64,000 nt of DNA from Rhodospirillum centenum SW. Its GTDB lineage: Bacteria; Pseudomonadota; Alphaproteobacteria; Azospirillales; Azospirillaceae. The notes under the pieces were generated by a model. That model did no database searches. It saw nothing but the letters and a program-made list of their open reading frames with translations, and was not told the origin of the DNA. The stretch is taken from positions 1,570,501-1,634,500 of the forward strand of contig NC_011420.2 in assembly GCF_000016185.1 (NCBI RefSeq), read 5' to 3'. Shown here piece by piece: positions 8,544-33,443 of the stretch (the first letter of the stretch is position 1; each line of letters opens with the position of its first letter). Position numbers and translations under genes: made by a program.

Positions 8544-9869
8544 GTGACGTCGCCACCCGAAGCAAGAGGAAGGACGGACAGCGTGACCGGAATTGCCCAC
8601 GCCGCGGGCCTATGTCGCGACTGCGGGGCCACGCCCCCGGCGGGGACCGTGCGCTGTCCGGACTGCGGCTCGATCCGCCTGCTTCGACACCCTGAGTTGC
8701 ACACCCTGAGCATCGCCCACATCGACTGTGACGCCTTCTATGCCACGGTGGAGAAGCGCGACCGCCCGGAACTGGCGGACAGGCCGGTCATCGTCGGCGG
8801 CGGCCAGCGCGGGGTGGTGTCTGCCTGCTGCTACGTCGCCCGGATGTATGGCGTCCGCTCTGCCATGCCGATGTTCAAGGCGCTGGCGGCCTGTCCGGAT
8901 GCGGCCGTCATCAAGCCGGACATGCGAAAGTATGCCGCGGTCGGGCGGCAGGTGCGCGCCCTGCTGGAATCGGTCACTCCCCTGGTGGAGCCGCTGTCCA
9001 TCGACGAGGCGTTCCTCGATCTGACCGGGACGGAGCGGCTGCACGGCGGAAGCCCGGCACAGACGCTGGCTCGGCTGGTCCGGCTCATCGAGCAGGAGGT
9101 CGGCATCACCGCCTCGATCGGACTGAGCTACAACAAGTTCCTGGCGAAGATCGCGTCCGATCTGGACAAGCCGCGCGGCTTCGCCGTGATCGGCCGGGCC
9201 GAGGCGCTGGATTTCCTGGAGCCGAAACCCGTCGGGATGATCTGGGGCGTCGGCCGGGCGCTCCAGGCGAAGCTGGAGGCGGACGGGCTGCGCACCATCG
9301 GCCAGCTCCGCCAGACGGACGAGGCGTTCCTGGTGAAGCGTTACGGCGTGATCGGCCAGCGCCTCCACCGTTTCGCACGGGGGGAGGATGCGCGGGTCGT
9401 CACGCCGCACGCGCCGGCCAAGAGCATCTCGACCGAAACCACCTTCGAGCGCGATTTCGGCGACCGCGACACGCTGGAACATGCGCTGTGGCCGCTGTGC
9501 GAGACGGTGGCCGCGCGTCTGAAGGCGGAGGGGCTGGCCGGAACCACCGTCACGCTGAAGCTGAAGACCGATACCTTCCGCCTGCGCACCCGGGCCCGCA
9601 CCCTCACCTCCCCCACCCAGATGGCGGACCGCCTCTTCCGCGTGGGACGGGAACTCCTGGCGGCCGAGCTGGACGGGAGCCTGTTCCGGCTGATCGGGAT
9701 CGGCTGTTCGGGCCTGGCCGAAGGCGCGCTCGCCGATCCGCCGGACCTGCTGGACCCCGGCCTCACCCGCCGGGCGAAGGTGGAGAAGGCCATGGATCTG
9801 GTGCGGGCGAAGCTGGGCCGCAATGCCATCGGGAAGGGACGCGGCCTGAGCGGCCCCGGCCGGCGCTGA
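8544..9869 (+). CDS. dinB: DNA polymerase IV (Y-family) with N-terminal zinc ribbon
   Basis: Error-prone translesion polymerase. GTG start with a TAGGAG Shine-Dalgarno sequence 4 nt upstream. Residues 24-45 form a zinc ribbon (CRDC ... CPDC), an extension seen in many alphaproteobacterial DinB proteins. The catalytic core begins at HIDCDAFYA (first metal Asp) and contains SIDEAFLDL (Asp-Glu pair), followed by the thumb and little-finger domains. 441 aa. No clear alphaproteobacterial LexA box (GTTC-N7-GTTC) is visible upstream, so SOS control is not supported by the sequence. Transcribed divergently from divK. Confidence 0.94.
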
Positions 9870-10775: not shown

Positions 10776-10933
10776 TTGTCTCCTCCCGACAAGGTGACGC
10801 AAGGGCTTTAACGCGCCGGCCGGATGATCGTCAGACACTGTCACCGGCAGGAACGCTTCCGGCATCTGACGCACGATACCATGTCAGCCCTGCGGCATGG
10901 GGAAAGCCCCCTACAGACCTCACGGATCAAGAG

Positions 10934-10960
10934 TTGTCAGTTCATAAGGCGCCATATAAC
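10934..10960 (+). promoter_or_regulatory. Predicted promoter of the marR-alkD unit
   Basis: TTGTCA (10934-10939) and TATAAC (10955-10960) separated by 15 nt. Transcription would start around 10967, only a few nt before the chosen marR ATG at 10971, which has no Shine-Dalgarno sequence, so the mRNA may be leaderless. The -10 box lies inside the operator palindrome. Confidence 0.5.
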
Positions 10961-10974
10961 ATGGCGCCTTATGA
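10942..10974. promoter_or_regulatory. MarR operator: 14-bp perfect inverted repeat over the promoter and start codon
   Basis: Arms TCATAAGGCGCCAT (10942-10955) and ATGGCGCCTTATGA (10961-10974) are perfectly complementary, with a 5-nt centre ATAAC. The element covers the predicted -10 box and the marR start codon. Both position and symmetry fit an autorepressor site for the MarR dimer encoded immediately downstream. Confidence 0.8.
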
Positions 10975-11492
10975 TACCTCTCGATCGGAAATACACCGCC
11001 CTTCTGTCTGGTCCTGGCACCGGCCCGGAAGCCGCCGTCGAGGGCATGCGCACCTGCTTCGAGGTGCTTTCGCTCGCGGCGGCCATTGATCGGGAGTGCG
11101 CCGTGCGCCTGGGCGCCCATGATCTGTCAGAGGGCAGGTTCGTCCTTCTGTTCCTGCTCCAGGCGGCCGAAGGCGGTCTGTCGCCGCATGAACTGGCCGA
11201 ACAGGCCGGCGTCACGCGCGGCACCGTCACCGGGCTGCTCGATGGACTGGAGCGATCGGGATTTGTCCGGCGGGAGGAGAACGACATCGACCGTCGCAAG
11301 CGGACGGTGCGTCTCACCCGCGACGGCGCCGCGCTGGTGCAACGCCTCGCGGAGGAGCATGGCCGCTGGATCGGTTCGCTCTTTGCGGATCTGTCGGCGG
11401 CGGAGCGTGACGCGCTCCGCCATCTGCTCGGAAGGGTCTTCGCCCGCACAGAGACTGGTATGCAGACGGAGACGGCGGATGGTGGCGGATGA
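10971..11492 (+). CDS. MarR-family transcriptional regulator
   Basis: Winged-helix dimeric repressor, 173 aa. The ATG at 10971 (MIPLDRKYTALLSG) is chosen because it gives a normal MarR length and lies just after the predicted promoter; the frame is open further upstream but would run through the operator. The DNA-binding part reads LSPHELAEQAGVTRGTVTGLLDGLERSGFV, followed by the wing EENDIDRRKRTVRLT and a C-terminal dimerisation helix (LSAAERDALRHLLGRVF). The next gene overlaps its end by 14 nt, so the two proteins are surely made together. The ligand is not predictable; the partner suggests a link to DNA-alkylating or electrophilic stress. Confidence 0.9.
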   Translation: MIPLDRKYTALLSGPGTGPEAAVEGMRTCFEVLSLAAAIDRECAVRLGAHDLSEGRFVLLFLLQAAEGGLSPHELAEQAGVTRGTVTGLLDGLERSGFVRREENDIDRRKRTVRLTRDGAALVQRLAEEHGRWIGSLFADLSAAERDALRHLLGRVFARTETGMQTETADGGG

Positions 11493-12246
11493 TGGCGGAT
11501 GCCGCCGCACGGCGATCAATGCCGGGCTGATCGAGACCCGCACTCTTGCCGAGGTCCTGGCGGTCGATTTCGCCACGCTGCTCCGCCATGTCGTGCCGGC
11601 GGATGTCCTGTCAGGCGACGATGGAATCCTGCGGCTCGCAACGCTCGGCATCTCCGCCCGGATGGCCGCGGTGGGGCAGCTCCTGCTGGAACGGCTCGGG
11701 TCACGGATGATCGCAACGCTCGGCAATCACCGGAGCGACACGGTCCGCGGCTGGGCGTGCTTCATGGTCGGCGCTCGGGACATGGCTTTGTCCGACCGGC
11801 TGGAGGCGATCCGCCCCTTTGCCGACGATGCTCATTTCGGAGTTCGGGAATGGGCATGGCTCGCGGTCCGACCCGCCATCAACACCCGGACCGACGAGGC
11901 GATGAGGCTCCTCAGCGCCTGGACGGCCGACCCGTCGGAGCGCATCCGTCGTTTCGCGTGCGAAGCGACCCGGCCCCGCGGTGTCTGGTGTGCCCACATC
12001 GCGTCCCTGAAGTCCGACCCGTCGCCCGGCCGTCAACTGCTCGACCCACTGCGTGCCGATCCCGCCGTCTACGTTCAGGACTCCGTTGGAAACTGGCTGA
12101 ACGACGCCGCGAAATCGCGGCCGGACTGGGTGCGCAGCCTCGTCGCGGAATGGTGCGCCGATGACCCGCCGCCGGCGACCCGACGGATCGTCCGGCGCGC
12201 CCTGCGCTCTGTCGACAAACCGCCCGGGAAGAAGGTCAGGACATGA
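11479..12246 (+). CDS. DNA alkylation repair (AlkD-like) HEAT-repeat protein
   Basis: 255 aa of alpha-helical HEAT-like repeats of the DNA_alkylation (AlkD/AlkC) superfamily; AlkD excises N3- and N7-alkylpurines without base flipping. Conserved stretches include SDTVRGWACFMVGA, HFGVREWAWLAVRP, DPSERIRRFACEATRPRGVW and VYVQDSVGNWLNDAAK, with Trp and Arg residues at positions where AlkD-type enzymes contact DNA. The start at 11479 lies inside the end of marR (14-nt overlap), so translation is coupled. A GTG three bases later is equally possible. The regulator-plus-glycosylase pairing suggests inducible repair. Enzymatic activity is inferred from family only. Confidence 0.8.
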   Translation: MVADDGGCRRTAINAGLIETRTLAEVLAVDFATLLRHVVPADVLSGDDGILRLATLGISARMAAVGQLLLERLGSRMIATLGNHRSDTVRGWACFMVGARDMALSDRLEAIRPFADDAHFGVREWAWLAVRPAINTRTDEAMRLLSAWTADPSERIRRFACEATRPRGVWCAHIASLKSDPSPGRQLLDPLRADPAVYVQDSVGNWLNDAAKSRPDWVRSLVAEWCADDPPPATRRIVRRALRSVDKPPGKKVRT

Positions 12247-33413: not shown

Positions 33414-33443
33414 GCAGAAGGCGCCGGCTCCGGCGCCTTCTGC
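33414..33443 (+). terminator. Hairpin after the methyltransferase gene
   Basis: A 14-bp perfect stem (GCAGAAGGCGCCGG and its complement) with only CT between the arms, followed by GTTTCGGG. Very stable, with a short U-run, so it may terminate both this gene and the convergent SDR. Confidence 0.6.

Follow-up and report, generated by a model that had tools for sequence, protein, structure and literature searches.

A marR–alkC-like gene pair in Rhodospirillum centenum with a probable autorepressor operator lying over its own start codon

Introduction

How is the production of a DNA alkylation repair enzyme adjusted to need in a bacterium without a recognizable Ada protein, and what is the role of a perfect palindrome lying across the start codon of the regulatory gene in front of it? 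Ada is an alkylation sensor that controls a repair gene, acting as an activator and being itself a repair protein. To our knowledge, little has been established about the regulation of AlkC/AlkD-type glycosylases. In the R. centenum genome, no Ada zinc-binding sensor domain was detected. The 64-kb stretch of this genome analyzed here (the window) carries a marR gene followed by an alkC-like gene, which an initial annotation had described as a repressor controlling itself together with an “AlkD-like” glycosylase.

MarR autorepressors and AlkC-like proteins are each already known kinds. Our literature search returned no description of the marR–alkC pairing, of its operator or of the cysteine pair described below, which is weak evidence, as subscription papers lay mostly outside its scope. 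Since the pair, the operator and two fixed MarR cysteines recur across three bacterial classes, the locus is probably a dedicated, on-demand DNA-repair unit, so far undescribed. If this is true, R. centenum would possess a dedicated repair switch that works on demand in a genome without a detectable Ada sensor, the repressor would stand for a MarR clade that has two cysteines and a defined operator, and the locus would offer a conserved case of an operator-buried start codon combined with a leaderless mRNA.

Results

A repeat scan located an inverted repeat at 10942–10974, annotated without strand, that reads TCATAAGGCGCCAT-ATAAC-ATGGCGCCTTATGA. Its arms are complementary at 14/14 positions around a 5-nt loop, just as the initial annotation had described them. 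Perfect 14-bp-arm repeats with a loop of ≤10 nt occur twice in the window, this one among them, and were absent from ten Markov shuffles; the second lies at 33414–33443 and has a 2-nt loop. The palindrome at 10942–10974 is single-copy in the window, and an arm-pattern search of the 4.36-Mb genome returned a sole further match, which carries 3 mismatches. With a single copy in the genome, an origin of the palindrome as a repeat element was therefore rejected. A model of the operator family described below found no second site in the genome at E ≤ 10, and a wider operator regulon in R. centenum was rejected on this result.

The palindrome coincides with promoter-like elements. A promoter scan of the forward strand placed a −35-like element, TTGTCA, at 10934–10939 (in the alphaproteobacterial register GTTGTC at 10933–10938, set against CTTGAC-N17-CTATAT) and a −10-like element, TAACAT, at 10957–10962 in the operator centre, yielding a promoter-like pair TTGTCA-17-TAACAT that spans 10934–10962. 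The marR gene (173 aa) occupies 10971–11492 on the forward strand, and its ATG (10971–10973) falls within the right palindrome arm, so that the repeat covers the predicted −10 box and reaches its end at the marR start codon, as had been proposed. Nor is there a Shine-Dalgarno sequence upstream of this ATG, in line with the earlier remark that marR lacks a ribosome site.

In R. centenum, the alkC-like gene lies on the same strand at 11479–12246, its ATG at 11479 overlapping the marR 3′ end at 11492 by 14 bp, in agreement with the earlier statement that the second gene starts within the end of marR. A GTDB genome scan with the AlkC-like protein was used to collect the best 80 loci of relatives. 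A marR gene sits directly upstream in 63 of them, from alpha-, beta-, and gammaproteobacteria, a proportion that, because the 80 loci are the best matches, is not an unbiased frequency. A 4-bp [AG]TGA overlap joins marR and alkC in 60/63 pairs. The window also contains an ATGA at 11489–11492; the frame that it opens stops after 13 codons and differs from that of the alkC-like gene, whose start is at 11479. The first dozen residues of the window protein (11479–11515 region) do not align with relatives, and a small indel, or else an error in the sequence, probably lies near 11513.

The DNA preceding marR at each of the 64 loci shares one motif, with the consensus TATAATTAGGCGCCATATTATATGGCGCCTTATGA. 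With the window held out of training, a weight matrix recovers this operator at 63/63 marR–alkC loci and scores the window itself at 32.6 bits, against a shuffled-region maximum of 6.1; two plasmid loci outside the training set reach 46.4 and 42.1 bits. At alkC-like loci without an adjacent marR, the operator occurs in 1/17. This single case is Alcaligenes endophyticus (L025), where a site of 35.3 bits at 2831–2865 precedes alkC in a genome in which a MarR of the alkC-paired type was not found, a situation that would arise if marR were lost and the operator stayed in place. The palindrome had been suggested to be a MarR operator that might be sought before such pairs in other genomes, and the idea finds support at the level of sequence, the search having succeeded.

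The two halves of the motif are conserved unequally, with a mean palindromic identity of 0.63 in the left box and 0.43 in the right box. Because the left GGCGCC-centred half is the better conserved unit, the perfect inverted repeat of the window is read as two inverted GGCGCC-centred boxes, a left one at 10940–10961 (GGCGCC at 10948–10953) and a right one at 10955–10976 (GGCGCC at 10963–10968), both unstranded and with their centres 15 bp apart. The right box is degenerate in Achromobacter, most loci of which keep the left operator half alone. A left-half matrix built from beta- and gammaproteobacterial loci only clearly detects the site in the remaining alphaproteobacteria and scores the window at 15.3 bits versus 16.0 for the best of 200 shuffles; the window site, which does no better here than the best shuffle, is therefore a divergent member of the family, and it is close in form to the sites of L136 and L137. 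The operator is not specific to repair genes and belongs to a wider MarR group, since a 41-bit site on the reverse strand of L099 (2031–2065) precedes a distant MarR that has neither alkC nor the cysteine pair.

Many marR–alkC loci fit CTTGAC-N17-CTATAT, a promoter type known from Sinorhizobium (PMC2873474), with a TTGA-containing −35 element, a [CT]TATAT-type −10 element in the operator centre and the ATG 8 nt past the −10. The position of the ATG within the right operator arm is identical in 19/20 alphaproteobacterial loci, the window included, with L066 as the exception. Assuming that transcription starts ~7 nt past the −10, the leader would measure 0–3 nt. A leaderless marR mRNA, raised as a possibility from the R. 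centenum sequence, gains support from this conserved −10-to-ATG geometry and looks conserved among the alphaproteobacterial loci. The near-leaderless layout is not shared by all groups, as start codons are placed farther downstream in Achromobacter and Aeromonas.

The same geometry bears on the possibility that the palindrome acts as an RNA hairpin controlling marR translation, and not as a DNA operator. Folded as one RNA, it reaches −26.7 kcal/mol (z −5.0), and such a fold would hide the start codon. However, because the −10 separates the two arms and is followed by the ATG at a distance of 8 nt in nearly all alphaproteobacterial loci, the left arm would stay outside the mRNA, whereas most Achromobacter loci, with their more distant start codons, keep only the left box. 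A hairpin is thus highly improbable: transcription is predicted to start past the left arm, and where the leader is long, the right arm is unconserved. As a DNA operator, the region 10940–10976 very probably serves MarR to repress both marR and alkC. The presence of the operator at every marR–alkC locus examined and its overlap with the promoter make autoregulation of the two-gene unit well supported at the sequence level, and with it the original proposal of a repressor that controls itself and the second gene.

The first gene product scores 48.2 bits against PF01047 (Pfam cut-off 24.6), which places it in the MarR family, and its predicted model (pLDDT 92.6) matches MarR structures. None of the NCBIfam equivalogs reaches its cut-off for this protein; the OhrR (2-Cys MarR) model NF052638 scores 40.9 bits against a cut-off of 200. 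The closest solved relative, both by sequence (4e-20) and by predicted fold, is Bacillus subtilis YetL (PDB 7wze), a repressor whose target is the monooxygenase gene yetM and not a repair gene.

Two cysteines distinguish the repressor. Cys29 (11055–11057) and Cys43 (11097–11099) lie on the same first long helix of the predicted model and are invariant in 64/64 alkC-paired MarRs. In evenly drawn genomes, every alkC-linked MarR relative has both, and both are missing from all 28 MarR relatives that are distantly similar and have no alkC nearby. This association was counted over raw relatives, uncorrected for relatedness, and the cysteine pair may simply mark one MarR clade. Among the thiol-switch MarR repressors, which include OhrR and YodB, some use cysteines within the first helix or close to it as the sensor (PMC10458429). 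In the model of the window MarR, both cysteines likewise fall on the first long helix; the protein differs from these repressors in falling below the OhrR cut-off and in having both residues on one helix. By analogy with OhrR and YodB, the two invariant cysteines of a MarR that adjoins a repair gene would be most simply explained by a thiol-based sensor.

The likeness to YetL allows for a different kind of signal. With operator and autorepression unchanged, the window MarR could be a classical repressor that, like YetL, binds a ligand and senses a phenolic, a flavonoid or a similar compound non-covalently; the AlkC-like enzyme would then guard DNA against reactive chemicals of plant or soil origin. 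The YetL operator is reportedly also GGCGCC-centred, which would fit such a repressor, as does the position of YetL as the closest solved relative. YetL responds to flavonoids (PMC10458429). On the other hand, a purely non-covalent sensor leaves the invariant cysteines unexplained, special as they are to the alkC-linked clade among the MarR relatives examined, and the match to YetL starts at MarR residue 48, leaving the first helix outside the comparison. We consider this kind of sensing rather unlikely. A thiol-reactive or alkylating inducer, in turn, is a tentative proposal that we would put at below even chances.

The linkage of repressor and enzyme was also assessed in an evenly drawn set of 299 Pseudomonadota genomes, where the pair proved rare. 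MarR (E < 1e-60) was found in 5 and the short AlkC-like protein (E < 1e-70) in 5, and the two are linked in 3. One unlinked MarR (L094) retains the operator, both cysteines and a gene for a DUF6616 protein, alkC being absent. The other (L098) adjoins decayed alkC remnants and has lost Cys43; sensor and enzyme may have decayed together here. The L098 locus (genome G208) retains the operator and the start-codon layout. A MarR supplied in trans was not found at 1e-20 in five alkC-only genomes, in a search that had no positive control.

The second gene product, a protein of 255 aa with HEAT-like repeats, scores 26.1 bits against the Pfam family DNA_alkylation (cut-off 21) and is the sole member of this family found in the genome. 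Among solved proteins, its best sequence match is Pseudomonas fluorescens AlkC (PDB 5vhv/5vi0; 7e-22, residues 128–248). AlkD2 of Streptococcus mutans and AlkD of Bacillus cereus share the HEAT-like repeat superfamily and the Pfam family but match less well, AlkD2 at ~4e-4 and AlkD being absent from the list of sequence matches. The predicted model (pLDDT 92.8) is all-helical and ends after the repeats, and in the fold ranking, AlkC entries come first (TM 0.62–0.64), with AlkD at 0.38–0.48. The label “AlkD-like” in the initial annotation consequently had to be replaced by “AlkC-like”, and membership in AlkD was rejected.

In AlkC, Glu121 and Glu156 reportedly take part in removing the base (review, PMC11514114). 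Their counterparts in the window protein are E124 (11848–11850; MAFFT alignment) and E162 (11962–11964; phmmer alignment), and both, together with D209 (12103–12105), are invariant in 24 orthologues. The protein differs from solved AlkC in lacking the C-terminal Ig-like domain and in being paired with its own MarR, and it is ~30% identical to full-length AlkC relatives. An AlkC subfamily without the Ig-like domain exists.

This distance from full-length AlkC and the missing domain would also suit a HEAT protein that binds DNA structures, like AlkF, AlkG, and AlkD2, superfamily members without glycosylase activity (PMC4433238), in which case the operon would not be a base-excision response. Yet both reported catalytic glutamates of AlkC have invariant counterparts here, and in sequence as well as in fold the protein is nearer to AlkC than to AlkD2 or AlkD; we regard a purely structure-binding protein as unlikely. 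Judged from its conserved residues and predicted fold, the AlkC-like protein is a good candidate for an active alkyl-base glycosylase.

The pair extends to a third gene in part of the loci. A gene for a DUF6616 protein (PF20321, unknown function) directly follows alkC in 32/64 marR-linked loci (L034, L015, L131, L132, and 28 more) and was never seen after alkC in loci without marR; the R. centenum genome has none. Besides DUF6616, the only conserved neighbours of the pair are genes common to close relatives, for instance within Achromobacter. The order marR, DNA alkylation repair protein, DUF6616 is annotated on two plasmids, the conjugative pDB-2 of Sphingopyxis (L131) and pmk4 of Klebsiella sp. 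(L132), and on pmk4, a recombinase and a Tn3-family transposase are the immediate neighbours of the three genes.

Discussion

Taken as a whole, the account that we favour, and hold to be on balance probable, is an autorepressed marR–alkC operon that is released by an inducer and serves AlkC-like base repair. MarR dimers would bind the two GGCGCC-centred boxes at 10940–10976 and thereby cover promoter, transcription start and start codon, so that both genes of the operon are silenced at once. An inducer would inactivate MarR, and a nearly leaderless mRNA would be produced, from the 5′ end of which marR would be translated, the overlapping alkC-like gene following via coupled translation. The AlkC-like protein would then remove alkylated DNA bases in base excision repair. 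The inducer itself could be an electrophile or an alkylating agent that reacts with C29/C43.

In its proposed role, the repressor resembles Ada as an alkylation sensor that controls a repair gene, Ada differing in being an activator and a repair protein at once. A more far-reaching version would be an Ada-independent alkylation response in which the damaging agent alkylates or oxidises the MarR cysteine pair, the operator is freed and the short AlkC glycosylase is switched on, the genes forming a portable two- or three-gene cassette (marR–alkC–DUF6616) among proteobacteria and also on plasmids. We offer this full version as speculation, with the chances against it.

A role in anti-phage defence was rejected, the PADLOC matches being weak and non-specific. 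In L006, a member of the same family as the window organism, an alkC-like gene is situated between recA and alaS, without marR or operator. Upstream of marR in R. centenum, at a distance of ~1.1 kb, dinB (DNA polymerase IV) occupies 8544–9869, and an EipB-like gene in divergent orientation separates the two.
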